Positions 3,078-17,529 of a stretch of 25,101 nucleotides of DNA are shown one piece after another. Each line of letters begins with the position of its first letter. The stretch's first letter is position 1. Source of the stretch: a virus; IMG/VR virus record IMGVR_UViG_3300030329_003926, positions 1 through 25,101 of that record. The stretch is one strand, 5' to 3'. Position numbers and translations under genes: made by a program. The notes below the pieces were generated by a model that saw only the letters and a program-made list of their open reading frames with translations, made no database searches and had not been told where the DNA came from.

Positions 3078-6000
3078 CTATATTCTTGAATTAACAGTGG
3101 AAACACCAGTTCTAATATCATCTGAGTTTACTGAGTTTAATACTTTACTTACTCGTTGCCCATCAAGATTAATAGGTGGAGGGCTAGTTACAACCTGTTT
3201 TAACAAACTATTCATTTGCCTTATTTCTTCAACTAAGTCACCACCACCCGGCAGAGGAGCGTTACCGCGTGTTTGATCAAGTGGTGTAATAGCTTCGGGT
3301 CCGGCTTCACCTATCAATGCTACTGTTGGTCTATTAACAATCGCTCCTCTAGCTCCAGCACCTTCTACTCGTCTTTCAAAATTAGTAAGCATTGCTTTCT
3401 GCTCATGGTCCTGCATTCCCGTACCCTTCAAAGCAGCTAATAATGACATTACTTCATTACTACTAAATTGAGTACCGGTGGTCCGCGAAATAACACTTCC
3501 TACATTACTAACCAGTTCACCCCTTAACCCTTCATCCATTTGACCTTCGGAGTTTTGCATAGCTTGATCAATGAACTGTGACATTATTTTACTTCCAGAA
3601 CTACCTCTCTTAAACGCTTGATATAGTTGCTCGCCGCCGGGTTTCCTAGCCACTCTCAATGCTCCCGCCAGAGAGCCTGTAACCTTTGCTCTCGCACCTG
3701 CTCCTCGTAATGGTTGCTTCTTCTTACCTCCCGAAAGAAAACCAGCCACAAGTGAGCCAGCAACACTACCAAGAAGAGGAGCTATTGGTGCCAATGGAGT
3801 AGCTGATAATGCCGCAGTAACTCCAAGATTAGCAGCTGTTCCTAAACCACTTGCCGCCGCTGCCTTACCTGCTTCTTTAAAAGAGCCAGTCTCAGCGAAA
3901 GTGTTAATACCAGCAGTTAATCCAGCTGCGCCACTCGCAGCTGCTCCCCCCTTCAAACCACCCTGTTTGGCCATATTATTTAATTTCGTAATTTGTTTAT
4001 TTACAAAAGCACCTTCGGTAGCCATTGATCTTGCTAACTCTTTACCTAGACCCTTTTTAAATCCTTGTCCTTCAAGTGCGCCTGCAACTATTCTACCGGC
4101 TGCTTGTGTAAACTCACCTCCCGCAGCTGTGCCCTCAAGAATACCTGCAGCTGCTCCTTCCTTTATTGCTTCTTGTAGATTACCTGTTTCTAGATATCTA
4201 TTCCACGCTGTTTCAACTCCTGTTGTAAGTCCACCCTTCATTTCCTCAGGCAACTTATTAAAAGCTCCCTCTATAGGTTTTGAAAGCTTATTCGGCATAA
4301 CCTTCCACATATCTTTCCAAGTTGTGTTGGTCATCTTCATAAAGTCATCCAAACCCACGGCAAGCTTATGCATGGTCTCGCCCCAATTACGTTTGGAACC
4401 TCCTCCTCTTCCTCCACCGCGACCACCTGGCGCGCCACCGCCAGTCATTCTTGGATCAGAAAAATATTGCTCTCTGGCTAGTTTTTCTTGCTCCTTCATT
4501 ATTTCATTAACTAATGCGCGTTGAGCTTGCCGGTCTTCCGCAGCCTGTTGTTCTATCTTTTGTTCTCTTCTTTTTATGGCGGCGGGATCACCTTGAGAGC
4601 CATAGATTGCTTGTTGTTGAGATTGTCTTCGTATATTTTGGCTTCCTCTTGCGACAGCAGCCGATGACACAGTACCAAACCCCCTGGCATACCCTGGAAC
4701 ACCAATAGATTGTAACTCTCTTGAAACAGACTGGCTTACTGGAAGACCCTTTCTTATTCTTTCCGTAGGTATAACAGCTTCACTTCTATTTTCTTCACCT
4801 ACCAAAGCTAGGGTTGGCCTACTATGAACTTGACCAGTGGCGTTTGTGGCTAAAGCACCAAGACCACCTGCAACTGCACCGCCGATTGCGCCAGGGATCG
4901 CACCAATACCACCGAACGCCATCCCAACACCACCACCCACAGCAGCACCTCCAATTATGCCCGAAATAACTCTGCCCACTGGTGAATTCATAAACCAATT
5001 TGTAACACCATTCATAAATGCTGCGCCGATTCTTTCACCTATTTGATTAAAAATCGGACTTAGAGTAGTCATTATTACACCAAAAGCTGCCTTTAGTTTT
5101 GGTCCAAGACCCTTAGCACCATCCATAGCCTTTGAGATACTCATTCCAAAAGCTCTAGCCATATCAGTAGCGTCATTCATCATTGGCTTTAGTTTATCAT
5201 GGAGCATTGTACCAAGCTCTGTAAACAACGGTAGTAATGCGGAAGATACCATACCTTTCAGTTGCTCCCACATTGTCATGGCTTCTTTGATGTATGTATT
5301 TAATTTTATTTGTTCTTGTGTAGGACCAGCTGCGGTTTTCTCCATATCTTTAATAACTTTACCCAACTGTCGCATATCTTTTATATTAAGACCAAGCTCT
5401 GCTCCTAGTTGTTTAGCTATACCAGGAAACCTTTCTATCATAGCCATGCCTTGTGGAGTGCTAATAGCTTTGTTTAACTCTTTCATTACTCCAATAGTAT
5501 CTTGCTTAACTGCCTTGTTATACAGGTTTAAGGCATTAAGATTGCTACCAAAAAATTGATTTAAGCGACCAACTAAATCAGTACCACTTTCTATGTTTAA
5601 AAAGGCATCTGTAGTTGCCAAGTTATCAGCCATTGACTTACCCATCTTGGCAGCCATAACAGCTGTTTTTCTCATGTAATCTTCACCACGACTTAAATAA
5701 ATTGATGTTAGATTACTATCATTAGAAATGTCTCTCATAACTTTGCGAGCATTTACACCAGACTTGGTTGCAAAAGTCATTATACTTTCAGCAAACTTTT
5801 CAACTTGAGGAGCCGTCTTTCCAAAGCCCCTTATAAGATTGTCTGCTAATGCCGCGGACTCTTGAGCGCTGCCACCCATAGCTTTTGCAATACGAGAAGT
5901 AACATCTATAAGCTTTGCAGAAACTTTTGTGGTATTACCTAAAGATTGTTGTAAGGCAGCAGCTTGCTTACCTGCATCAGTTAAACTAATATTGAGTGCG

Positions 6001-6422
6001 GCTAGACCACCCGCACCAAGTTTAACCTCTTTGAATACAGCCTTAAGTTGCTTTCCTACTAGTCCTGTGTCTTTGGAGATTGATGCAATAGTATCACTTA
6101 CCTGCATCAACTGTTTGAATAATAATGTAGCTGCGCTCGTAATAGCCCCAAGAGGACCAAGAGCTGCCATTTTACTTAGCCCGGGTAACTTCTTAAACGC
6201 CCCACCAGCAGCTCTTAAAGTGTTCCCTAATGTTTTAGCTAAACCATCAGATTCTTTTTTAATAGAGTCCGAGGCGGCTTTAAACTGCTGAGTAAACTTT
6301 TCCATTTCCGATGTAGCATCAGTAAGAGCTACACTAAAATCAGCAGTATTCTCTTTAATGTGTATAAAGTTTCCAGCTACTTCCTTAGAAGCTTTATTTA
6401 AATTATTAGAGATATCGGCCAT
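3078..6422 (-). CDS. Tail tape measure protein
   Basis: 1114 aa. The tape measure sets tail length, fills the tube lumen during assembly and is ejected with the DNA. Support: large size, position after the tube gene and chaperone-like pair, long alpha-helical Ala/Lys/Gln-rich N-terminal part, and Gly/Ala-rich hydrophobic stretches typical of tape measures at about residues 482-525 and 857-900. A charged, probably coiled-coil segment (about 600-650) is followed by a Gly/Arg linker (GGGAPGGRGGGRGGGSKRN). The C-terminal tape-measure signature occurs twice: RPTLALVGEENRSEAVIP near residue 540 and RPTVALIGEAGPEAITPL near 1035. This suggests an internal duplication or fusion of two ends. No cysteine was noticed. 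The functional equivalent in T4 is gp29, but clear homology cannot be claimed by eye. The start is preceded by a purine-rich GAGAGAG. Confidence 0.9.
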   Translation of the reverse strand: MADISNNLNKASKEVAGNFIHIKENTADFSVALTDATSEMEKFTQQFKAASDSIKKESDGLAKTLGNTLRAAGGAFKKLPGLSKMAALGPLGAITSAATLLFKQLMQVSDTIASISKDTGLVGKQLKAVFKEVKLGAGGLAALNISLTDAGKQAAALQQSLGNTTKVSAKLIDVTSRIAKAMGGSAQESAALADNLIRGFGKTAPQVEKFAESIMTFATKSGVNARKVMRDISNDSNLTSIYLSRGEDYMRKTAVMAAKMGKSMADNLATTDAFLNIESGTDLVGRLNQFFGSNLNALNLYNKAVKQDTIGVMKELNKAISTPQGMAMIERFPGIAKQLGAELGLNIKDMRQLGKVIKDMEKTAAGPTQEQIKLNTYIKEAMTMWEQLKGMVSSALLPLFTELGTMLHDKLKPMMNDATDMARAFGMSISKAMDGAKGLGPKLKAAFGVIMTTLSPIFNQIGERIGAAFMNGVTNWFMNSPVGRVISGIIGGAAVGGGVGMAFGGIGAIPGAIGGAVAGGLGALATNATGQVHSRPTLALVGEENRSEAVIPTERIRKGLPVSQSVSRELQSIGVPGYARGFGTVSSAAVARGSQNIRRQSQQQAIYGSQGDPAAIKRREQKIEQQAAEDRQAQRALVNEIMKEQEKLAREQYFSDPRMTGGGAPGGRGGGRGGGSKRNWGETMHKLAVGLDDFMKMTNTTWKDMWKVMPNKLSKPIEGAFNKLPEEMKGGLTTGVETAWNRYLETGNLQEAIKEGAAAGILEGTAAGGEFTQAAGRIVAGALEGQGFKKGLGKELARSMATEGAFVNKQITKLNNMAKQGGLKGGAAASGAAGLTAGINTFAETGSFKEAGKAAAASGLGTAANLGVTAALSATPLAPIAPLLGSVAGSLVAGFLSGGKKKQPLRGAGARAKVTGSLAGALRVARKPGGEQLYQAFKRGSSGSKIMSQFIDQAMQNSEGQMDEGLRGELVSNVGSVISRTTGTQFSSNEVMSLLAALKGTGMQDHEQKAMLTNFERRVEGAGARGAIVNRPTVALIGEAGPEAITPLDQTRGNAPLPGGGDLVEEIRQMNSLLKQVVTSPPPINLDGQRVSKVLNSVNSDDIRTGVSTVNSRI

Positions 6423-6505: not shown

Positions 6506-6721
6506 TTAATTCTTCTTTGGTCTTTTTGCTAATGATTCTTTTTGTGCTTTTTCTTCGGCCTTACGTTTTTCTTCCAGTGTCCAGTTAATTCTTTTTATCC
6601 ACCAGTTTCTAAGGTTAACTGGCATGTTATAAGCGTCTTGAAAAGATACTTTACCATGATACACTACATCAAAAAGTTCCTTATAAAAAGTTTCTTTACT
6701 ATTCGTCAGGCCAAAAGAAAC
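6506..6721 (-). CDS. Short downstream frame of the gp26-like gene, possibly expressed by +1 frameshift (gp51-like or tail-assembly chaperone extension)
   Basis: An open frame lies between TAG at 6722-6724 and TAA at 6506-6508, overlapping the end of the gp26-like gene in the +1 frame. From CTG 6707-6709 it reads LTNSKETFYKELFDVVYHGK and continues SFQDAYNMPVNLRNWWIKRI, ending in a Lys/Glu-rich tail. The 'YHG...MPV..R.WW' pattern resembles small proteins coded in this place in T4-like phages. There is no ATG or TTG near the start of the frame. The first GTG (6662-6664, giving 52 aa) would cut away FYKELFDVV, which looks part of the domain; an AAGGA lies 13 nt upstream of it. The frame may therefore be read as a frameshift extension of the upstream gene, for which UUU-UGG at 6711-6716 is a candidate slip site. 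Coordinates give the whole open frame; the true start is unknown. Confidence 0.6.
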   Translation of the reverse strand, partial: VSFGLTNSKETFYKELFDVVYHGKVSFQDAYNMPVNLRNWWIKRINWTLEEKRKAEEKAQKESLAKRPKKN

Positions 6722-7574
6722 CTACCGAAATCGGTACATCCACCTCCCCTCGGTGGCCGCAATGAGAACAATTAAACTCCTGGTTCATATCAATATCTGG
6801 AGTATTGTCTTCCATATGCTTTCTAAGTGCCCGTGAATCTCTAACATTAAGAGAATCTACATACTGGTTAATCAAAGAAGGATCATTATTACCATCAATA
6901 GAAAGAATAGTATTCTTAAGACGAGTAGTAACATTCCTGTCAATAGGAGAGTTAGTGCTTCTCTTAATCCTATCTTGTGCGTCAGAAATTTCCTTCTCTT
7001 CGGCACTATTCAAAAACTTAAACTCTATATGAGTGCCAGTTGGTACTTGAAAATAAAATCTATTCTCACCCTTTTCAATAGGTTGAATATCCAACGTCTT
7101 CATTTCAAGTTGACTCAAGTCAAACTCATACTTAGAAGTTTCCTCACAACCAGGGCAGTCTATTTCAACCTTGTATTCTGGTCCATATCCACTTACTCTC
7201 AAAAAGGTAATAAGTGCATTTTTATCACCCGACAAAAGTTCTTCGGGGTTAATCCTGGCGTCCAAAATACAGTTCTGTAAAACAGCATCAATAGCCTTAC
7301 CACTACGCAACAAAGACCTTGATGTAAGAATATCCTCATCAACAGCAGTCATATATCTTACTTCAATTTCTTTGAGATTATGTAAGGGGGAACTAGGTGG
7401 ATAAACCAAACCAAAAGAAGGAAGCGGAACAAACTCAGTAGGAACTTTGAAGGCAGAAGCCTCATTAGCTTCTGCCCCCATTTTCTGAGCGCGTTCAATA
7501 CCTGCCATTTCTTCTGGTGTTAAAACTTGTTTTTCTTCTTGTGATTCTTCCAAATCAACATTAATTTCCGTCAT
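6699..7574 (-). CDS. T4 gp26-like baseplate hub / putative tail-assembly chaperone protein with two CxxC pairs
   Basis: 291 aa, preceded by AAGGA 9 nt before the ATG. The middle reads ITFLRVSGYGPEYKVEIDCP, the arrangement I associate with the T4 gp26 family (Pfam T4_baseplate). T4 gp26 is about 208 aa, so this protein is longer. Two knuckles, C140-PG-C143 and C269-SH-C272 followed by GH, could together bind one zinc. The N-terminal 40 residues are acidic and Gln-rich, probably disordered. The gene lies between tube and tape measure, where lambda-like and Mu-like phages encode the gpG-type tail-assembly chaperone, and it overlaps a second frame at its 3' end as gpG does. In T4, genes 26 and 51 are also adjacent and lie upstream of the tape-measure gene 29. 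Assignment to the gp26 family is fairly likely; a chaperone role is inference from position. Confidence 0.75.
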   Translation of the reverse strand: MTEINVDLEESQEEKQVLTPEEMAGIERAQKMGAEANEASAFKVPTEFVPLPSFGLVYPPSSPLHNLKEIEVRYMTAVDEDILTSRSLLRSGKAIDAVLQNCILDARINPEELLSGDKNALITFLRVSGYGPEYKVEIDCPGCEETSKYEFDLSQLEMKTLDIQPIEKGENRFYFQVPTGTHIEFKFLNSAEEKEISDAQDRIKRSTNSPIDRNVTTRLKNTILSIDGNNDPSLINQYVDSLNVRDSRALRKHMEDNTPDIDMNQEFNCSHCGHRGEVDVPISVGFFWPDE

Positions 7575-7617: not shown

Positions 7618-8112
7618 TTAGTATCTTAGTATACACTCGTCCATACGAATTGTAAGGTCGATAGGTAATACTTCACTTGATGCCATATCATAATCACCAA
7701 AAGTGGCATCGGTAATAAAAGCACCTCTGATTTCCCATCTTTCTACAGCTGCACCGACAGGATCAAGGGCGATTAGGTTAAAGTTCTTCTTGTAAAAAGC
7801 TGCATATCCATCTCTGCCAGAAATTGTTTCATGTGCCAAACGAGCCCATTCCATAACCTTCTGTGCTGCTGAAGGAGCAATAGGATCGTGAAGTCCGATA
7901 GTCATTGTATTCCACTCAAACTTACCAGCCAAATAGCGCTTAGTGTTCAAGTAATCAATCGTAACAGTTTCCTGTGTGAAAGATGGCCGTGAAGCTGTTC
8001 TAGCAATATAAGCTGGAAGCGTATCATCAGTGAACTGAAACAAAAATCTATTTTGTCTCTTAGGTTCAAAGGTGTCCGCCAGCATCGCATTAACTTCAAA
8101 AGGCTGTGGCAT
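7618..8112 (-). CDS. Tail tube protein (T4 gp19-like)
   Basis: 164 aa, essentially the size of T4 gp19 (163 aa). It forms the inner tube inside the sheath. The sequence opens MPQPFEVNAMLADTFEPKRQ and continues NRFLFQF, with FEWNTMTIGLHDPIAPSAAQ in the middle and an end (LPIDLTIRMDECILRY) typical of the gp19 beta-barrel family. It lies directly downstream of the sheath gene, the usual pairing. GGAG stands 8 nt before the ATG. The 108-nt gap to the sheath gene holds a hairpin terminator, so tube mRNA may come both from read-through and from a separate start. Nothing appears broken or missing. Confidence 0.92.
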   Translation of the reverse strand: MPQPFEVNAMLADTFEPKRQNRFLFQFTDDTLPAYIARTASRPSFTQETVTIDYLNTKRYLAGKFEWNTMTIGLHDPIAPSAAQKVMEWARLAHETISGRDGYAAFYKKNFNLIALDPVGAAVERWEIRGAFITDATFGDYDMASSEVLPIDLTIRMDECILRY

Positions 8113-8220: not shown

Positions 8221-10629
8221 TTACTCACTAAAAGCTGCGCCGTTAGGTGTGACAGTAAAGTCAAAGATAACGATTTCAGCTGCGGTGGTGGGCTTCAAGA
8301 AAATCTTACCCTTGATAATGTTTCTATCAATCAAGTCTGGTGTAGTAGTGGTTTCATCCAATACTGCTCTAAACTCGTTAACACCGTTAGCGGCTTGTAC
8401 GCTAGAAAGATAGTCATTAACCTGTGTCAATAGACGCTCTCTTGTAGCAACAGAGTTGGGTTCAAAAATGAAGAGTCGTGAGAAACCAGCAATAGTCTTA
8501 CGAACTTCAATCATCATACGGCGAACATTAACTCTATCCAATACCGATTGCTTAACCTGTAGAGTCTTCTGACCGAAGATAACAATACCTTGGCCTGGGA
8601 AGGTTGCAATTGGGTTGACATTGTTCGTATAAAGGTCGTCACGTTGACCTTGAGTAAGCCTTCTTCTAACCTCTAATACCTCATCCAAACCACCACGATT
8701 GAAGCCAGCAGGTGCAAACCAAGGCTGAGCAACTCTATCGTTGAATGCGTAGGCACCCATTACAGCTACTGATGGGGGAACCCAAACGAGCTTATCATTA
8801 TCAATGTCGTTAATACGAACCCAAGGATAATAAGTAGCACCGTAGTTAGAGGTATACTTAGCAGCTTCTGTCTGAGCGTTTGCAACCGATAGAGCCAAAC
8901 CAGAACCAGTAGCGGTTGTATCGGCAATATCAATAATACCAAATGCGTCTGCTCTTGTTGAACACATGTCCAACAGACGGTCAGTTAGTGAACCGCCGGC
9001 AGAAGAAGTAATACCAGGCATCGCAATGAGATTAAAGTCAACCTCATCGGGGTTAGAAAGAATTTTAATAGCTGTATTAAAGTCACCCGACAATGTATCA
9101 GTGCCAGTTGACTGCTCTGTTTCCAACTGATTCTTACGAGGATCAAAACCATCCCAACCACCAAACATAGGTACAGTAAATCTTACCTTATTAGTAGTAG
9201 AAAAGTTACCAGAGTTAGAGCCAACCTGATCAACGTAAGTATATTGGGCTGAAATTGAAGTATTAGTAGCACTAGAAGCTCCGCCAACATCATCACTATT
9301 AGCAAAGATTAGAATACCATGATCAGCACTAGTAGTACCAGAAGCTGAAGTTACGGTCTTCTTAAGTCTGTCACTAATGCTTTTTCTACCCATATCATCA
9401 ACACCAATAAAGATACGACCATCAACAGCACTATTAGTGTTCAAGTGGTTAGTTTTCATTGGAAGTGCCGCGGCACTTAGAGTTTGACTACCAGTAACAC
9501 CAGCATACATATTAGTACTAACACCCTTGAAACCTGCAGGTCTTGCAGCTTCAGGTGCTTCAGCAGCCATAGTGATTCTTACATACTGTGACTTATTAGG
9601 ATAGTCACCGTTGTACAATACTTCTGGAGGATCTTGAGAAAGATCGAAAACGGTCTCTCTATCACCAATAACCCTAGCAATATAGTTTTTGCTATCGGGG
9701 TTAAGAGTAACGTCTGTGAAAGTTTCCAATACAATAGGATTCTCATCCGTATCATTAGCTTGTCTTACGGCTACAGTAAAAGCCGGATAAGAGCTAGCTG
9801 AAGTTTTGATATCTACATGAGAAATAGCAATCTTATATTGGTTATTAGTATTACTACCATCAGCAAGAGCAGTGAACTTAAATAGTTCATGCACTGTACC
9901 AGCAAAGTTCTGAGAAACAACATAAGGCGTACCTGCGGGAGCAAAGCCACCTGTTACTTCTTCAAATGCATCAGCAAGAGCGCTAACACTTGACCAGTGA
10001 CCACGACCACCAGCATCACCAGATATAGTAGCACCATCGGGTGGAGTTGAATAAGTAAGAACAGAATCTACATAAAAAGCAGTAAATCTATCACCATTAT
10101 GTGATTCAATAGGATCAGTACCTAATACTTTCTCAATATAGCCAGCATCAGAAGGAACTAGTGAAAGACCTTCTACTACATCTGAACCAGCAGATAATGA
10201 GAAATCCCCATGATTACCACTAAGACAAATATCACCAAGCCCGCTAGCTCTTCTTCTAATAGTAGCATAAACTGTATTAGATGAAGACAACCCAGCCGAT
10301 GCTGTCTGTCCTTCGATACCAACATTAGGAAATGCAATGACACCAACCTGACCAGCATTAGCGGTATTCTTACCAAGAACCCTAACTACTGTAAGAGGTG
10401 AGCCATTTCTGAGATAGGATTTAGCAGCATAAGGCATATACTTGGTGACATCTTGACCACCAAATGTATTCCTAAACTCACTAAAATTATTTACCCGAAT
10501 TGGCCTAAACGCAGGACCAGATACAGTACGACCTATTAGGGCAGCACCAATCGTACCAGCACCAGCGGGTACAAAAGTATCATCAATTTCCTGAGTATAG
10601 ACGCCGGGCGAGACAAAGACTTCGGCCAT
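8221..10629 (-). CDS. Contractile tail sheath protein (T4 gp18-like)
   Basis: 802 aa, longer than T4 gp18 (659 aa). It forms the contractile outer layer of the tail. The N-terminus MAEVFVSPGVYTQEIDDTFV, followed by AALIGRTVSGPAFRP and FRNTFGG, is characteristic of T4-type sheaths. The C-terminal part (about residues 690-800: RRMMIEVRKTIAGFSRLFIF, then FLKPTTAAEIVIFDFTV) is the conserved domain that packs on the tube and carries the interlocking arms. The extra length lies in the middle, roughly residues 100-500, a Ser/Thr/Asp-rich region probably forming surface-exposed insertion domains. GGAG lies 7 nt before the ATG. Two flanking hairpins suggest that it is an independent, highly transcribed unit. 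It has only two cysteines, in contrast to the fibres. Confidence 0.95.
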   Translation of the reverse strand: MAEVFVSPGVYTQEIDDTFVPAGAGTIGAALIGRTVSGPAFRPIRVNNFSEFRNTFGGQDVTKYMPYAAKSYLRNGSPLTVVRVLGKNTANAGQVGVIAFPNVGIEGQTASAGLSSSNTVYATIRRRASGLGDICLSGNHGDFSLSAGSDVVEGLSLVPSDAGYIEKVLGTDPIESHNGDRFTAFYVDSVLTYSTPPDGATISGDAGGRGHWSSVSALADAFEEVTGGFAPAGTPYVVSQNFAGTVHELFKFTALADGSNTNNQYKIAISHVDIKTSASSYPAFTVAVRQANDTDENPIVLETFTDVTLNPDSKNYIARVIGDRETVFDLSQDPPEVLYNGDYPNKSQYVRITMAAEAPEAARPAGFKGVSTNMYAGVTGSQTLSAAALPMKTNHLNTNSAVDGRIFIGVDDMGRKSISDRLKKTVTSASGTTSADHGILIFANSDDVGGASSATNTSISAQYTYVDQVGSNSGNFSTTNKVRFTVPMFGGWDGFDPRKNQLETEQSTGTDTLSGDFNTAIKILSNPDEVDFNLIAMPGITSSAGGSLTDRLLDMCSTRADAFGIIDIADTTATGSGLALSVANAQTEAAKYTSNYGATYYPWVRINDIDNDKLVWVPPSVAVMGAYAFNDRVAQPWFAPAGFNRGGLDEVLEVRRRLTQGQRDDLYTNNVNPIATFPGQGIVIFGQKTLQVKQSVLDRVNVRRMMIEVRKTIAGFSRLFIFEPNSVATRERLLTQVNDYLSSVQAANGVNEFRAVLDETTTTPDLIDRNIIKGKIFLKPTTAAEIVIFDFTVTPNGAAFSE

Positions 10630-10827: not shown

Positions 10828-11084
10828 AGAGCCACCTCTTCTTCTTCAATTGCTTCTTCAGTAGCGACCACATCATCCACAGAAGGCTGCTCTTCACCGG
10901 TGATGCTTTGAATAAGCGCATTAGCATACTGCAAAGCGCCAGCATTTGTAGCCAAGTTATTACGAACTGCCGCCAACTGTTCCTCAAGCTGAGTGCGAGT
11001 AGCGGTCAACTGAGATACAGCTTCGGTTAGCTGCTTCTGCTGATCTTGCAAGGTTTCCAAACTTACAGAATTATTATCTGCCAT
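10824..11084 (-). CDS. Small acidic coiled-coil protein of unknown function
   Basis: 86 aa. Residues about 8-55 form a heptad-rich helix (LETLQDQQKQLTEAVSQLTA), strongly predicted by eye as a coiled coil. The C-terminal 20 residues are very acidic (EEAIEEEEVAL). It has no cysteine and no signal or membrane segment. Its ATG overlaps the stop of the glycosyltransferase gene by one base (TAATG), with a strong GGAGG just upstream, so it is translated with the cassette. It is the last gene before the sheath. A small structural or scaffold role, or an oligomerisation partner, is possible; no family is recognised. Confidence 0.75.
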   Translation of the reverse strand: MADNNSVSLETLQDQQKQLTEAVSQLTATRTQLEEQLAAVRNNLATNAGALQYANALIQSITGEEQPSVDDVVATEEAIEEEEVAL

Positions 11085-11842
11085 TACTTCCTCCTTTTGT
11101 TATTTAAAAAATCCATCGGTATTCGATAGTATTCAGTACCATACTTATCATAACCAGCTTTAAAAGCTTCGTATGCTTCTTCTAGCTTACCAATAAACTC
11201 CGCAGATACTCCAAGATAATAGTAACTTTGGTAATCATCTGGGAATCTACGCAATCTATCTTTCGCTAACTTATAATAATAAGGTGCCTTAACCTTCATA
11301 TTTAGCTTGCCCCAATGATGTATAACCAAATCTGTCTTTATATACTTTAATTTCGCCCTACTTAAAGAGTTATAAAGTGTTTCATGCGTATTAAACTCAA
11401 AAAATATTCTTGGGTCGTTACGAAACAGCCGAATACAGCCATCATCAACTGCGTTAGTAAAACCTTTGTATTCTTCTACCTTCTTAACACCAAATTCTTC
11501 CCGTCCTACCGGAAGATATCCTCGTTGATGAATTTGAAAGGCATCTATACCCTCCATCTTAACTGCTCTACTTATTTTTTCTAAGTTCTCCGAATCTATT
11601 TCCTCATCCGTATCCATGCGAAAGATCCAGTCAGATTCAACCAACCTTAAACCTGCGTTAAGTGGAGCAGAGTAATCATCGAACCACGGGAAATAGAGAA
11701 CCTTGTATCTACCGCTTTGCTTAACCTGCTTGTTGCCCGTGATTACGATGACTACTTCACTTACTACACTCTCTACTGCTTTAATAATAGTTTGAACAGA
11801 TTTAAACTCGTCCTTACACATTATCAATAGAGCGATGGACAT
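11084..11842 (-). CDS. GT2-family (GT-A fold) glycosyltransferase
   Basis: 252 aa. Transfers a sugar from a nucleotide-sugar donor to an acceptor that cannot be told from sequence. The N-terminus MSIALLIMCKDEFKSVQTII is the nucleotide-binding strand and loop of GT2 enzymes. YSAPLNAGL is followed by a DTDEEID segment (about residues 77-83) that supplies the DxD metal/nucleotide motif. VIHHWGKL near residue 175 is common in this subgroup, as is a helical TPR-like C-terminus (YQSYYYLGVSAEFIGKLEEA). The arrangement resembles small bacteriocin or flagellin glycosyltransferases rather than processive synthases, and no membrane helix is present. It overlaps the kinase gene by 29 nt and the next gene by 1 nt, so it belongs to the same operon. 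Confidence 0.85.
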   Translation of the reverse strand: MSIALLIMCKDEFKSVQTIIKAVESVVSEVVIVITGNKQVKQSGRYKVLYFPWFDDYSAPLNAGLRLVESDWIFRMDTDEEIDSENLEKISRAVKMEGIDAFQIHQRGYLPVGREEFGVKKVEEYKGFTNAVDDGCIRLFRNDPRIFFEFNTHETLYNSLSRAKLKYIKTDLVIHHWGKLNMKVKAPYYYKLAKDRLRRFPDDYQSYYYLGVSAEFIGKLEEAYEAFKAGYDKYGTEYYRIPMDFLNNKRRK

Positions 11843-12755
11843 ATAGCTTACCCCCAGTGCCTTTTACTATGTTTGTTTTAGTGTTTCTATAAATTTCATC
11901 AGACATGCTCTTACTAACTACATCAATAGTTCCGAGCTGCTGTGTAGAGAGATGCGCCACAATGTCGCCATACACTAACGCCGGTAGATATGCCTCCCCC
12001 TGCCACCGCGCCATATACGACACGAACCCTGCTAAAAAAGAATCGCCAGCACCAATACTATCTATAAAGTTATTATCCTTATCTTTAGTAAATATAACAT
12101 TTACACCCAACTCTTTAATGTAAGCTACACAACCTTTATCACCTAAAGTTACAATAACATTAGAACCTGTTTTTTCAAAAATATCTTTTGAAATCATTGT
12201 AGAGTCACCATTACGATACTCTACTTTCATAAAATCTTGAGCTGTTTTTAAGTTAACTTTCAACCAATCTATATTGTTATGAGAGTCCCAAATATGATTG
12301 GTATCAACGAAACTAATAGCTCCCTTAAGATGACATTCCTCCCTTATACGAACAACATCAGATTTTTTTATAGTTCCCTTATGGTAGTCAGAAACAATAA
12401 CAAAATCTCCATGTTCTATGCTATCTATACACCTATCAATAACGCTTTCATCATATCCTACTCCATCATTTACATCTTCCCTTAAGAAGAATCTATCGTC
12501 TACATAATGTCTTACTTTCGTAGGATGGTCAATCCAGCCGGGAGGAAGTTCATCAAAGCACCCAGTATAAAAAAACTGAACCTCTTTGCCGCATAAAGAT
12601 TCAATGTTACGAACAAGATTGCCGGCCCCGCCATTTACAGACTTCTCTTCTAGTAACTCTACCACAGGAGCATTGTCATTAGCAGGGTCGGTTCTTGTTT
12701 GTTTATAAAACCTATAGCGATCAATCAAATAATCGCCAACTACAATTATTTTCAC
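11814..12755 (-). CDS. PfkB-family sugar kinase, similar to the HldE/RfaE heptose-7-phosphate kinase domain
   Basis: 313 aa from a GTG start (12753-12755) that overlaps the histone-like gene's stop. PfkB kinases phosphorylate sugars with ATP. VVGDYLIDRYRF followed by DPANDNAPVVE matches the HldE opening (GD-x-hydrophobic-D-R-Y ... PEAPVPV), where the sugar is bound. NGGAGNLVRNI (41-51) is the GGAxN motif, and DSIGAGDSFLAGF carries the GxGD catalytic loop with Asp at 238. The overall length equals the kinase half of bifunctional HldE; the nucleotidyltransferase half is absent. In bacteria HldE makes ADP-heptose for LPS. Its presence beside a GT9-like transferase supports a heptose or heptose-like pathway, but the true substrate could be another sugar phosphate. 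A host enzyme would be needed for the missing activation step. Confidence 0.85.
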   Translation of the reverse strand: MKIIVVGDYLIDRYRFYKQTRTDPANDNAPVVELLEEKSVNGGAGNLVRNIESLCGKEVQFFYTGCFDELPPGWIDHPTKVRHYVDDRFFLREDVNDGVGYDESVIDRCIDSIEHGDFVIVSDYHKGTIKKSDVVRIREECHLKGAISFVDTNHIWDSHNNIDWLKVNLKTAQDFMKVEYRNGDSTMISKDIFEKTGSNVIVTLGDKGCVAYIKELGVNVIFTKDKDNNFIDSIGAGDSFLAGFVSYMARWQGEAYLPALVYGDIVAHLSTQQLGTIDVVSKSMSDEIYRNTKTNIVKGTGGKLYVHRSIDNV

Positions 12756-12928
12756 TTGGAAGCTTCGATACTTACCTTGCGATATTCTGTCAATAGCTTC
12801 TTAAGTTCAGTAGCAGCCTTACGAGCGCGAGTTCCAGCAGCCTTGTTACCCGCTGCATTCTTTTCGTGATTAGCTTTGAACTCTTCCAAAACTGCTTCAA
12901 TCTGATTATATGAATCCTGTACTGCCAT
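12752..12928 (-). CDS. Histone H1/Hc1-like small basic protein
   Basis: 58 aa; ATG at 12926-12928 is preceded by GGAGG with good spacing, and the stop overlaps the next gene (GTGA). The sequence MAVQDSYNQIEAVLEEFKAN is followed by NKAAGTRARKAATELKKLLT and EYRKVSIEASK. The acidic helix, then a Lys/Arg/Ala-rich helix containing 'GNKAAGTRARKA', is the pattern of phage and bacterial Hc1-like proteins, which bind DNA non-specifically. Its place inside a sugar-modification cassette is unexpected. It could help condense DNA, or bind nucleic acid in another role. Confidence 0.8.
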   Translation of the reverse strand: MAVQDSYNQIEAVLEEFKANHEKNAAGNKAAGTRARKAATELKKLLTEYRKVSIEASK

Positions 12929-13492
12929 TTAATCACCTCCTTTGGTAACGTAATAATTCTCTAACACTAAAGCATCAATGTTAGAGTTAGTAAATGTTCT
13001 TACTGCATCTCTTGGTGATTCCACAATCGGCTCTCCACCAAGATTAAACGATGTATTTAATAAAACAGATACTCCTATCTTATCTTTAATACATTTTAGT
13101 AAATTATAAACTTTACTGTTTTGTTCTTCATTGACCGTTTGTATTCTAGCGGACCCATCTTCATGTGTTATTCCCGGTAGATTATCAACTTTTACCTTAT
13201 AAGACATCAACATATATGAGTTAGCGTCAGTTTCTAAAAGGTCGAAATAGTTGCTGGCTTCGTCTTCAGCAACGATTGGAGCATAGGGTCTCCATGGCTC
13301 CCTATACTTTACAAAGTCGTTTAGATGGGATTTGGCAAGCTCCCAGCAGGGGTTGGCGAATATGCTTCGGTGGCCCAGTGCGCGAGGCCCATATTCGCTG
13401 GCTCCTTGAAACCATCCTACTACTTTATTATTAGAAATGTCTTCAGCTACTCTATCAAGTAGCTCATCATCAGCTAGCTTCTCGTAAAGCAT
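12929..13492 (-). CDS. O-carbamoyltransferase, C-terminal subunit of a split NodU/CmcH-type enzyme
   Basis: 187 aa. It contains the YrdC-like C-terminal domain of the family: KVVGWFQGASEYGPRALGHR (23-42) and VLLNTSFNLGGEPIVESPRD around 143-162. In TobZ-type enzymes this domain makes carbamoyl-AMP from carbamoyl phosphate and ATP. The Kae1-like half is coded by the gene immediately upstream. The start ATG lies within that gene, 23 nt overlapping, with GAGGA about 8 nt before it. Aligned to the neighbouring 600-aa enzyme it begins exactly where the linker between the two domains ends (MLYEKLADDELL versus LPYERLESKEIV). I read it as a deliberate two-subunit arrangement, not decay, because both chains are otherwise intact. 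Confidence 0.85.
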   Translation of the reverse strand: MLYEKLADDELLDRVAEDISNNKVVGWFQGASEYGPRALGHRSIFANPCWELAKSHLNDFVKYREPWRPYAPIVAEDEASNYFDLLETDANSYMLMSYKVKVDNLPGITHEDGSARIQTVNEEQNSKVYNLLKCIKDKIGVSVLLNTSFNLGGEPIVESPRDAVRTFTNSNIDALVLENYYVTKGGD

Positions 13493-14567
13493 CTTCTATT
13501 TCCTCATCGTTATAAAGTTTACCTGTGAAACCCAAATAATCATCCATCGTTATTACTTTTTCTTTTTGAGATACTTCATAAAGCGCTCCACCAAAACACA
13601 AACCCGAATCATTAGCAGCTGGAAAGATATGAATGTCTTTGAAAAAGCCGGGTCGCCAACGAGACTTTAGAAGAGCTGCATTAGCTAATACATTCAAACC
13701 ACAACCGCCACCTATACAAAGATAAGGAGCCTTGATGGTTAGAGTAGCAAAAAACTTTATAAGTATTTCTTCAAACTGATGTTGTAGCCATGCAGAAACA
13801 TCTTTAGCGTCATACCTATCTAGTTGTGCGTCAGTAGGCATTTTATGGTCATAGATGTAGGGAAAATAAAAACCATCATTGTTTATCTTAAACAAGTCTG
13901 GTAAATCAATTTTATCTTTATTTCCATAAGCAGATAACCCCATTATTTTCCCGGGAGCTGTTTCCATAAAAACATAAGGATTATCAATAGATTCTGCTTT
14001 CTTTGACTCCATTTTGCTATAACACCAACGAGAGATGTTATTATAAACTTGACCTAGATTGAAAGTAGTATGTTCTTTTACTCCATTGATAGAATGATAA
14101 ACCACATAAACACCTTTTTGTTTATCTCCTATCGCATAAAGTCCTGTTTCATAACCACCGCCAGGAAAACTATTACCCGCTCCATCAAAAGTAAGAATAC
14201 TTGCCTTCTCAAAAGGACTGGTATAAAAAGTAGCACAAGCATGAGCTTGATGATGGTCACAAAAACTTACCTTTGCTTGTGGAAACTCTCTACTCAATAC
14301 ATCTTGGATAGCTGTATGCCTAGAAGGAGAATGAACATTCTCTACATACACTACTATATCTACTTCATCCCTAGTGATTTCTGCTTCATCTAAAACATAG
14401 TCAATAGATAGGTCGGGAAAGTTGCCATCATACTTTTCTCTAGTAAGTCGCTCTTCACTAATAGTAGAGACATGGGTTCCATCAACCCATAATGAAGCGC
14501 CAGCAGAATGAAGCCATGCGTCATCGGGTGCCCAACCACAGCATCCATAAAGACCGATTATTTTCAT
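13470..14567 (-). CDS. O-carbamoyltransferase, N-terminal subunit of a split NodU/CmcH-type enzyme
   Basis: 365 aa. It carries the Kae1/ASKHA-like domain, which transfers carbamoyl from carbamoyl-AMP to a hydroxyl, usually of a sugar. Visible: SEERLTREKYDG (38-49), the metal-site motif CDHHQAHA (103-110), FDGAGN (near 127), and CIGGGCGLNVLANAALL near 287. It ends GKLYNDEEIEDALREAS, the point where the one-piece paralogue enters its linker. Its ATG overlaps the stop of the 600-aa gene by 4 nt (ATGA), so the two enzymes are co-translated. N-terminal sequence differs strongly from the 600-aa paralogue (an extra insertion around GWAPDDAWLHSAG), so it is probably an old duplication or a separately acquired homologue with a different acceptor. 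Confidence 0.85.
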   Translation of the reverse strand: MKIIGLYGCCGWAPDDAWLHSAGASLWVDGTHVSTISEERLTREKYDGNFPDLSIDYVLDEAEITRDEVDIVVYVENVHSPSRHTAIQDVLSREFPQAKVSFCDHHQAHACATFYTSPFEKASILTFDGAGNSFPGGGYETGLYAIGDKQKGVYVVYHSINGVKEHTTFNLGQVYNNISRWCYSKMESKKAESIDNPYVFMETAPGKIMGLSAYGNKDKIDLPDLFKINNDGFYFPYIYDHKMPTDAQLDRYDAKDVSAWLQHQFEEILIKFFATLTIKAPYLCIGGGCGLNVLANAALLKSRWRPGFFKDIHIFPAANDSGLCFGGALYEVSQKEKVITMDDYLGFTGKLYNDEEIEDALREAS

Positions 14568-16366
14568 ACAGTTTTCTTTTCTATCAAATAATTTTCCAAT
14601 ACCAAAATATCAATGCCTGTCTTTGAGAAACAAGCTATAGCATCCTTCGGTGATTCAACAATAGGCTCACCCTTATCATTGAATGAAGTGTTGATAATGA
14701 TAGGTATACCCGTCTTTTTATCGAAAGCTTTCACAAGAGAATAGAGTCTTCCGTTATCTTCCTTTGTGAGCGTCTGTACCCTTGCTGTGGCGTCGATATG
14801 AACACCCGAAAGTATTTCCTCAGGCCTATTACATAAGACACTATACAACATAAATGGCGAAGCCTGACCATTTAGTTGAAACCACTCTTCCGCATTCTCT
14901 AATGGCACGACAGGAGCGAATGGTCTAAACTCTTCACGGTGCTTTACCTTATCATTTAGAATACCTTTGTTATTAGGATTACGAGCATCAGCAAGAATAC
15001 TTCTGTGACCCAAAGCTCTTGGTCCAACTTCACTACCACCTTCAAACCAACCGACTATTTTACCTTCAATAATGTAGTCAGCAACCTTATCAACAATCTC
15101 TTTGCTTTCCAATCTTTCATAGGGTAACCCACTATCCTTAATAGCCGTAAGTATCTCATCACCAGAATACTTTTTACCACCCTCAAAAACTTCTTTTACA
15201 CTATGAATCTTTTTCTTGCTTACTGATTGTTCTACTTCGTCCTTCTTATTCTTCTTCAACTGATTAGATAGAAATACTGCTCCACCAATACACAACCCAT
15301 CATCGCCAGCAGCAGGTGCAACAAATACATTATCAAATAAGTTACTATTCAAAATCTTTCCATTACTTACACAGTTCAAAATAGTCCCACCAGCAAGACA
15401 TAGATTTTTAGAAAGATTACCACCCGTCTTTGCCAACTTCTCTACCATGTTGTGTATTCCTTCTTCTAACACAGCTTGAGCGGTGGCAGCAATGTCTTGT
15501 GATTGTTTACTATCCCAATCATCCTTGTCTAACCATTCTGCAGCAGCTTTTCCACCTTCACCTTTTAGTTGTGGGTAAAATACTCTATTATCGGGGAAGT
15601 TTTTGATGCCAGCCCTTGAAATAGTGTGCAGATACATGTCCCCGTGAAAGACATCGCCCATTTGGACTACACTTGGCCAGCTGAAATCTTTATAATCCTC
15701 AAAAGGTGTCCCATACGCAGCCAATGCCATCACCTTGCCAGCATCAGTTAGAGAGGGCCAGAAGCCCAAATAATCACAGATTTGCCCATAATAAGACCCA
15801 ATTGTGAAGTCACCGCCTCTACGCAACGGCCTAAAAATTGTGTTCTTATCGTCAAAGTAATAAGCGGAATGATTTGCCCCAACATTATCAGCAAAATCAA
15901 CTGAAAGGCAAATAGCATCCTTATATGGAGACATAAAGTAAGCGTAAGCACAATGACTAAAATGATGATCCAAAAAGAAGCAGCGTTTGGTTTGATCCCC
16001 AACAGAGAAGTTATACATTCCTTGTGCCACCATAGCACTATTCTGCGCCAGCTGTCGCCACTCCTGTTCTGAAAATTCTATACCATTATCATTTGTTATT
16101 GAGAAGTCCTCTTTAGTTTTATCAAATAGCTCTTCACCTTCTAAACCACGGTCCCAGAAATAATTATTCACAGAGATAACATCAATATCATCAAACTTCA
16201 TGTTTGCTTTATCTAAAACATATTTGATTGTTCTTTTGGTGACGCCGCGTTCTTTTTTGAAACGGGTAAGCCTTTCAGTTGCTAATGCTGCTACTAACTT
16301 CCCATCTTTTACAACACAGGCACTGCCATCATGCCCAAAGTTTAGTCCTAAAACATTGATTGCCAT
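14564..16366 (-). CDS. Full-length O-carbamoyltransferase (NodU/CmcH/TobZ family)
   Basis: 600 aa, the normal family size. The N-terminal Kae1-like domain begins NVLGLNFGHDGSACVVKDGK and includes ATERLTRFKKERG and the Fe-site motif DHHFSH (133-138). CLAGGTILNCVSN lies around 325-337. A lysine-rich linker (about 370-395) leads to the YrdC-like C-terminal domain with GWFEGGSEVGPRALGHRS around 440-457 and IINTSFNDKGEPIVESP near 570. All key regions are present, so it should be active using ATP and carbamoyl phosphate. AGGAG lies in front of the ATG; the upstream glycosyltransferase ends 8 nt before. One oddity is SVDFADNVG (155-163), where many relatives show a DGxGE-like loop. The acceptor may be a sugar of the cassette or, as reported for some phage homologues, hydroxymethylcytosine in DNA. 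Confidence 0.9.
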   Translation of the reverse strand: MAINVLGLNFGHDGSACVVKDGKLVAALATERLTRFKKERGVTKRTIKYVLDKANMKFDDIDVISVNNYFWDRGLEGEELFDKTKEDFSITNDNGIEFSEQEWRQLAQNSAMVAQGMYNFSVGDQTKRCFFLDHHFSHCAYAYFMSPYKDAICLSVDFADNVGANHSAYYFDDKNTIFRPLRRGGDFTIGSYYGQICDYLGFWPSLTDAGKVMALAAYGTPFEDYKDFSWPSVVQMGDVFHGDMYLHTISRAGIKNFPDNRVFYPQLKGEGGKAAAEWLDKDDWDSKQSQDIAATAQAVLEEGIHNMVEKLAKTGGNLSKNLCLAGGTILNCVSNGKILNSNLFDNVFVAPAAGDDGLCIGGAVFLSNQLKKNKKDEVEQSVSKKKIHSVKEVFEGGKKYSGDEILTAIKDSGLPYERLESKEIVDKVADYIIEGKIVGWFEGGSEVGPRALGHRSILADARNPNNKGILNDKVKHREEFRPFAPVVPLENAEEWFQLNGQASPFMLYSVLCNRPEEILSGVHIDATARVQTLTKEDNGRLYSLVKAFDKKTGIPIIINTSFNDKGEPIVESPKDAIACFSKTGIDILVLENYLIEKKTV

Positions 16367-16374
16367 CGTAGCTC

Positions 16375-17529
16375 CTATAGGATTATTTTATTTTTATTGT
16401 CTTCCTTATTTAGTGTTGATTCTAACTTTTCTACTTCTCGCAGCACTTGTTTTACTGTTATTGACTTCATACAGGAATAACCTCTGTCACATACCCAACT
16501 TTGCCCCTTCGGGTTTACATCAAACACTGAAGGTCGCCAACAACCAATAATGTCACAGCTACTTTTATTCCAAATGTTGATGTTATGCTCATGCCCCCAC
16601 ACATTCGGGCTAACACTACCCCACAACACAATGCCTCTCTTTTTGATAGCAGCAGCAAGGTGAGGAACATTATTATCAATGCTCATAAAGAACTTACACT
16701 TTGGATGCTCTAACATTTGCAGAATAGGATTGAGGTTGTCTACCTTTATACTCTGCACATTAGGTATGTCTGGATTGTCTTGACCATTAGATACTTGAAC
16801 AAAAGAGTATTTACTTTTTAGCTTATCTACCAGTTCAGCCCAACGCTGTAAAGACCAAACCTTGAATGTTCTATAGTTGATGGGTTGAGCATAATCTTGT
16901 GGGTTTCTATCCATTCCTAAATGTAACAATACAACTGGTTTAGAAGTAGACCTCATAAAACTGGATACTTGATTGTTTTGTTCCGTAACCTTGAGCATAG
17001 GTGGGCCACCATCATACTCTAAACCCATTACCTTCCCATAATGATGACTAATAAAGCTCTTTTTATCATTCTTGTATTTATGTTGATGAATAAGTTTGGT
17101 AAGAGCAAAGCCATACTCAATAGAGTAAGCTCGTTCCCAGTTATTATTGAGAAGTTCCCACAACTCTAACTGATTAGGGATTTTACTATTTTTGAACTGC
17201 TCCAACCAGTGTGTAAAGGTTGGGTGTTCCATACCGGCTTCGCCTATACTCCAAAGACCAGGATCATTGGGATAACCACCATGACCTTCGGGAATCTGAA
17301 TACCATAAACTTGTTGGTTAGATAAAGCAGCAGAAACCATATGCCCTATAAGAGTATTATCACATACTAAAATAGGATGCGTATTACCATCTTGTTTTCT
17401 TTTGCGGATAAGAGTGCGAATGAAAGCAGTTTGAAGAATCCTTGCTCCCATACCGCCCTGAAGAATAAGAAAATAAACCTTATCTTTTGGGCTGCTAACC
17501 TGTATTTGTTGATTCTGTTGCTGATTCAT
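16375..17529 (-). CDS. GT9-like (heptosyltransferase-type) glycosyltransferase
   Basis: 384 aa. After a Gln-rich tail (MNQQQNQQIQ), VYFLILQGGMGARILQTAFI (18-37) resembles the N-terminal GDxxxxTP-like loop of ADP-heptose:LPS heptosyltransferases. The C-terminal Rossmann domain contains MSIDNNVPHLAAAIKKRGIV around 284-303 and WGSVSPNVWGHE, the S/T-D...HLAAA...LfG pattern by which GT9 enzymes bind the donor. A four-cysteine tail (CDIIGCW ... VCDRGYSC) is also seen in GT9 relatives. It is a soluble GT-B enzyme and probably adds a heptose or similar sugar. It fits the HldE-like kinase in the same operon. AAAGGG lies before the ATG, and a hairpin with a promoter-like sequence lies upstream. Confidence 0.75.
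   Translation of the reverse strand: MNQQQNQQIQVSSPKDKVYFLILQGGMGARILQTAFIRTLIRKRKQDGNTHPILVCDNTLIGHMVSAALSNQQVYGIQIPEGHGGYPNDPGLWSIGEAGMEHPTFTHWLEQFKNSKIPNQLELWELLNNNWERAYSIEYGFALTKLIHQHKYKNDKKSFISHHYGKVMGLEYDGGPPMLKVTEQNNQVSSFMRSTSKPVVLLHLGMDRNPQDYAQPINYRTFKVWSLQRWAELVDKLKSKYSFVQVSNGQDNPDIPNVQSIKVDNLNPILQMLEHPKCKFFMSIDNNVPHLAAAIKKRGIVLWGSVSPNVWGHEHNINIWNKSSCDIIGCWRPSVFDVNPKGQSWVCDRGYSCMKSITVKQVLREVEKLESTLNKEDNKNKIIL

Follow-up and report, generated by a model that had tools for sequence, protein, structure and literature searches.

The stretch of viral DNA analysed here (hereafter the window, 25,101 nucleotides, positions 1 to 25,101 of the IMG/VR record IMGVR_UViG_3300030329_003926) very probably carries a frameshift-expressed pair of tail assembly chaperones belonging to the T4 gp26 family, the long form of which would be produced by a +1 slip of the ribosome. 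The observations behind this reading are the anatomy of the two genes, their conservation, a marked constraint on codon choice around the site, and the homology of the domain across three arrangements. The features of the locus are the following:

8221..10629, minus strand: tail sheath protein (phrog_23, E=6.5e-77; PF04984)
7618..8112, minus strand: tail tube protein, gp19-like, directly upstream of the gp26-like gene (phrog_4542, E=2e-28)
6699..7574, minus strand: gp26-like gene (PF12322, T4_baseplate), short form of 291 aa, ending in ...VGFFWPDE and the stop
6509..7574, minus strand: predicted long form of 355 aa, obtained by translating with one base of TGGC skipped
6721..6726, minus strand: SD-like GGTAGG upstream of the slip site, possible stimulator (anti-SD pairing -6.4 kcal/mol)
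6722..6724, minus strand: +1-frame stop TAG, upstream bound of the shift window
6714..6716, minus strand: UUU proposed as the slip codon (P site), with UGG as the next codon; the tRNA would re-pair with UUU 6713-6715
6699..6701, minus strand: zero-frame stop TAG of the gp26-like gene, downstream bound of the shift window
6506..6721, minus strand: +1-frame ORF of 71 codons, predicted to encode the C-terminal domain of the long form
3078..6422, minus strand: tape measure protein, directly downstream of the small ORF (phrog_305, E=8e-5, and position)

Read along the minus strand, the order is sheath, tube, gp26-like gene, small ORF and tape measure. The ORF list bears out the coordinates and the frame first described for the small ORF, which overlaps the end of the gp26-like gene, opens at 6721 and is +1 relative to it. 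The original prediction also placed the pair in the slot between tube and tape measure, and the profile matches of both neighbours agree with this; the same slot holds the overlapping ORF pair in the phages immuto, Mel-JY01, SP-15 and BRock. The gp26-like protein matches PF12322 well above the curated cut-off (E=5e-18, 66 bits against 24.5) and also phrog_150, a baseplate hub family (E=3.4e-21). Translated with one base skipped, the predicted long form consists of 287 gp26-like residues up to ...VGFF, followed by GLTNSKETFYKELF...

A block of carbohydrate genes (11084-17529, minus strand) is found between the tail fibre genes and the sheath of the same window, with two glycosyltransferase-like genes and two carbamoyltransferase loci. 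One carbamoyltransferase is seemingly split (12929-14567, minus strand) into an N-terminal domain matching PF02543 (14567-13470) and a C-terminal domain matching PF16861 (13492-12929) that lie in different frames and overlap by 23 bases, the second part having an ATG. It may be a split gene, a frameshift or a case of decay. An intact full-length paralogue adjoins it (16366-14564, minus strand).

The small ORF has no obvious way of being translated on its own. Its first GTG is codon 20 (6664) and its first ATG, at 6625, falls within the conserved domain; a search for ATG, GTG or TTG near the start of the ORF found none ahead of this domain, in line with the earlier remark that the recognisable part begins before the first GTG and that neither ATG nor TTG is available nearby. 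The ORF is also closed to entry from a start further up because of the +1-frame TAG at 6724-6722. This stop and the missing start together imply that a ribosome can enter the frame only by changing frame within eight codons. Judged from the sequence, independent initiation in the window is excluded as far as ATG, GTG and TTG are concerned.

IMG/VR contains 594 or more relatives of the gp26-like protein. About 120 related loci were inspected, including cultured phages and MAG contigs. With a single exception, LR756511, which encodes the domain in the -1 frame, they have the +1 frame open over the gp26 stop and carry the domain in it. When nine close relatives are compared, the small ORF differs 401/117/836 times at codon positions 1/2/3, and the median dN/dS of the +1 frame is about 0.06 (19 scorable pairs). 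By these substitution patterns, the +1 frame is protein-coding and under purifying selection. Being open in nearly all relatives, with a conserved protein and such a dN/dS, the small ORF is more than a chance open frame. The source is a metagenomic contig and one base would suffice to fuse both frames, so that sequencing error or a decayed gene might be invoked; however, the same arrangement recurs in cultured phages (immuto, Mel-JY01, SP-15, LIS04, BRock and GXN1) and in hundreds of independent contigs, and this account, to which we give a negligible probability, is already refuted by the relatives.

Another way to express the small ORF would be as a separate gene, by a near-cognate start or by a termination-coupled restart, with the gp26-like protein never being extended. 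In the window a CTG is found at codon 5 of the small ORF, but it is not conserved, being CTA in two relatives (L003 and L004). The 8-codon shift window is closed by an upstream stop in the window and in 13 other distinct sequences, most of which have no ATG, GTG or TTG ahead of the conserved domain. Relatives with a clear ATG and ribosome-binding site were also looked for, and an ATG near the gp26 stop appeared in only a few of the +1 relatives, without being conserved. The best case for a separate gene comes from P-SSM2-like cyanophages, most of which carry an ATG in the small-ORF frame 5 nt beyond the first base of the gp26 stop, and from GenBank, where P-SSM2, Syn9 and KVP40 have separate gp51-like CDSs annotated. 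A separate start would nevertheless leave unexplained the codon constraints described below (the YTT codon, the avoided T before it and the fixed TTC of the -1 clade), and we regard it as unlikely.

For a ribosomal +1 shift, the overlap of the window (GTA GGT TTC TTT TGG CCT GAC GAA TAG) offers a single good candidate. UUU-U (6716-6713) is the only codon that re-pairs perfectly within the shift window, as expected from the proposal that a tRNA on UUU (6714-6716) slips forward onto an identical UUU (6713-6715). When relatives were compared at the overlap, UUU followed by a pyrimidine (UUU-Y) was present within the shift window in 106 of 106 distinct sequences. The variants of the site are TTT TTT TGG CCT (75 loci), TTC TTT TGG CCT (20) and TTT CTT TGG CCT (12), with few others, and wherever relatives have TGG at the site the codon before it is YTT (UUU or CUU). 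Taking representatives at 90% identity, this codon reads TTT in every one of the 81 cases with Phe (background 70%) and CTT in each of the 11 with Leu (background 26%). The expectation was derived from the codon use of each gene, and the joint log10 P is -20 for these representatives and -8 for the 43 representatives at 55% identity, probabilities that ignore shared ancestry. The base preceding TTT TTT is constrained too, T being avoided (GAC 15 and GAT 0; AGC 11 and AGT 0) where C fractions are otherwise 33-40% (log10 P -17.5, shared ancestry ignored). A T in this position would create the classic -1 heptamer U UUU UUU, and its avoidance is what would be expected if -1 slippage is selected against. 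The proposed slip at UUU is thus flanked by signals of codon choice on top of its perfect re-pairing.

Upstream of the slip codon pair, six-base stretches able to pair with the anti-SD are enriched at a distance of 3-5 nt in the relatives, and they pair more strongly than synonymous shuffles do, by 0.9 +/- 0.2 kcal/mol. No common downstream RNA structure that could act as a stimulator was found in 8 loci (z-scores -2.9 to +1.5). The window does not have a classic X XXY YYZ -1 site, since the ORF is +1 and the overlap reads GGT TTC TTT; the cyanophage clade does qualify. Taken at the level of sequence, the +1-frameshift reading of the overlap is well supported.

The frame might also change at a different codon, either the first Phe codon where this is UUU or CCT-GAC, which had been put forward as a second +1 site. 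The first UUU followed by a pyrimidine can indeed re-pair as well in the sequences with TTT CTT, TTT CTA or TTT TTT AGT, and in L003 and L008 it is the sole site of perfect re-pairing. In the clade of the window (TTC TTT TGG), perfect re-pairing is available only at the second codon. As for CCT-GAC, neither CCT nor the base that follows it is conserved among relatives, some of which have CCC, CCA, TCT or GTT instead, and this candidate was rejected. A ribosomal shift at a codon other than the proposed UUU appears very unlikely. Slippage of the polymerase on the T run is a further conceivable source of the frame change, given that among 121 +1 loci the run reaches 7 T in 80 and 8 T in 4. In 35 loci, one of them the window, the run is just 3 or 4 T long (TTC TTT TGG or TTT CTT TGG), yet both the arrangement and YTT-T are kept; we have therefore rejected transcriptional slippage as highly improbable.

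Two phages show another motif at the end of gp26, namely TTT CGT in Streptococcus phage GXN1 (L005, 3217 region) and TTT CGC in Streptomyces phage BRock (L007, 3214 region). The TTT-CGN motif is known from +1 shifting in RNA viruses and has been proposed in haloviruses (PMC7230728). The HF1 group of haloviruses and HSTV-2 resemble the window in having a proposed +1 shift between tube and tape measure, at a TTT-CGC motif (PMC7230728); they differ in that the hosts are archaeal and the +1 shift of the HF1 group is itself a proposal. The +1 frameshift of prfB (RF2) is a closer parallel in two respects, the CUU-U slip present in some relatives (TTT CTT TGG) and an SD-like element upstream (PMC5009743), although here the A-site codon is UGG and not a stop and no autoregulation is known.

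In the phages P-SSM2, Syn9, HTVC008M, KVP40, Cr30 and ViI there is a single PF12322 gene, and the small ORF after it lies in the -1 frame. All 159 of the loci of this type from IMG/VR end gp26 in NNT TTT TTC, although TTC makes up 19% of the Phe codons there. The T before the pair is uninformative alone in this clade because its background is 85-93%. In ViI the site is ATT TTC, without a clear heptamer. An ATG at +5 is present in most -1 loci and missing there in about a dozen, and separate initiation is therefore a possibility for the -1 clade. In P-SSM2-like loci (L171-L329), the retained -1-frame ATG might also yield a free small domain. In GenBank the small ORF is labelled gp51-like in P-SSM2, Syn9 and KVP40, and the KVP40 record describes it as similar to the C-terminus of T4 gp51. 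These small 'gp51' CDSs share with the window the slot after gp26 and the domain; they are unlike it in lying in the -1 frame over T TTT TTC, in being annotated as separate and in often having an ATG nearby.

The homology of the domain in both frames is supported by profile searches. When 4490 six-frame ORFs were searched with the +1-domain profile, the -1 ORFs of 74 loci were retrieved, and no other match scored better than E=1.7. The 595-kb uncultured jumbo phage LR756511.1 (L009, ~3190-3420) uses the -1 frame for the domain, over GGT TTT TTC. Its gp26 groups with the +1 set in spite of this, and the slip direction seems, from its sequence, to have been switched in this lineage.

T4 itself represents a third arrangement. 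Its gp26 and gp51 are both PF12322 proteins (E 9e-64 and 4e-52), but phrog_150 covers gp51 to position 280 and gp26 only to position 235, and the -1 domain of P-SSM2 matches phrog_150 positions 231-278. It follows that gp51 is a gp26 paralogue with an extra C-terminal domain, which gp26 does not have. The -1-domain profile also finds the long proteins of T4, RB49, 44RR and CP220. A direct profile comparison between the +1 domain and the C-terminus of T4 gp51 was not significant (hhalign 1.5%), so the link to T4 goes through the -1 clade, whose domain is connected significantly to both the +1 domain and the gp51 C-termini. The annotated gp51 family, phrog_634, matches 3 of 59 +1 domains (best 4.7e-4).

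It had been suggested that T4 genes 26 and 51, being adjacent, could be the same system. The genes are indeed neighbours, but they lie on opposite strands (divergent), contrary to what the suggestion implied. Likewise, the homology of the T4 pair (PF12322 in both, and the extra domain in gp51) stands, whereas the mechanism does not: because the two genes are divergent T4 does not frameshift here, and 26/51 as a frameshift pair was rejected. T4 appears, from these sequence relationships, to have a pair comparable to lambda G/GT as two divergent genes, with gp26 as the short and gp51 as the long member. A precedent for such a proposal is provided by gp143/gp144 of phage 0305phi8-36, a G/GT pair derived from paralogous genes (PMC2147016), although the proteins are different and T4 gp26/gp51 are not mentioned there. 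The T4 proteins have been named hub assembly chaperones or hub components, not tape measure chaperones, and gp51 is essential and reported to be absent from the particle (PMC3004832). In the open-access literature we found no paper that treats gp26/gp51 as G/GT or reports frameshifting from one to the other.

The +1 domain is also reminiscent of DUF6760 (PF20546). The domain of the window stays under the cut-off (16.4 bits against 27), and DUF6760 matches 29 of 59 relatives of the +1 domain (6509-6715) at E up to 0.1 (best 1.2e-7). By sequence the domain is thus possibly a distant DUF6760 relative, not filed as a member. No match to DUF6760 was obtained in 296 cellular genomes of one order, a search with no positive control, and no open-access paper on it was found. 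DUF6760 presumably occurs in contractile injection loci; if so, the chaperone idea would extend to them.

The gp26-like part and the small domain were folded apart, with two GenBank phage rows left out of the alignments. The gp26-like model (pLDDT 88.5, pTM 0.82) had no significant match in the PDB by Foldseek (E 3-4). The best two of 740 realigned chains were YqbN (3klu, Z 5.2, 3.4 A over 82 residues) and HK97 gp13 (2ob9, Z 4.4, 4.4 A over 87), both with low Z and covering residues 167-259 only. A Z under 8 can reflect a common arrangement. Both proteins are described as tail assembly chaperones (PMC9603447), and the resemblance of the predicted gp26-like fold to them is weak and supports the chaperone reading without proving it. 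For the small domain three helices are predicted (pLDDT 87), with fold matches to generic helical chains only (Z up to 3.3). By sequence, the PDB contained no relative of A4 or of T4 gp51, the lone A4 match (E 0.54) being a designed protein.

Putting these elements together, we infer the slip step and its efficiency, the chaperone function and the equivalence with T4 as follows. Most ribosomes would stop at the TAG at 6701-6699 and release the short form of 291 aa. A fraction would pause with peptidyl-tRNA-Phe on the UUU at 6716-6714 and UGG in the A site. The tRNA-Phe would then slip one base forward onto the UUU at 6715-6713 and translation would continue in the +1 frame. The product would be a long form of about 355 aa with the junction ...VGFF-GLTNSK, its last 68 residues making up the three-helix domain. 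If the pair works like lambda gpG/gpGT, the tape measure protein would be coated by the short form, while the additional domain of the long form would recruit tube subunits, and both forms would then leave the tail. The two systems are alike in having overlapping ORFs between tube and tape measure, a second domain reached via frameshift only and a shared N-terminus (PMC5009743). They differ in that lambda shifts -1 at another slippery site and the window +1 at UUU-U, and in that the N-terminal protein of the window is PF12322, without detectable sequence relation to that of lambda.

Elsewhere, the equivalent two-form protein would be made by a -1 shift in the cyanophages, KVP40 and others, mostly at U UUU UUC, and from two genes in T4. 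We consider it likely that T4-type phages, T4 included, have a G/GT-like pair of the gp26 family obtained by three interchangeable means, namely a +1 shift (the window and hundreds of relatives), a -1 shift (cyanophages, KVP40, Cr30 and ViI) and duplication (T4 gp26/gp51), and that the direction of the slip is set by the single U ahead of UUU UUY together with the final base of the second Phe codon.

If this is correct, the annotation of hundreds of marine phages, in which the domain has been missed or called a separate gene, would be corrected. The relatives would also form a natural series, with one base near UUU UUY tracking +1 versus -1 slippage, useful for studies of reading-frame control. 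Frameshifted tail chaperones are the rule for long-tailed phages, and T4, the best studied of them, is the named exception in a review of the subject (PMC5009743). Considering gp26 and gp51 as the short and long forms, encoded by two genes, would provide a testable answer for the role of the essential gp51.
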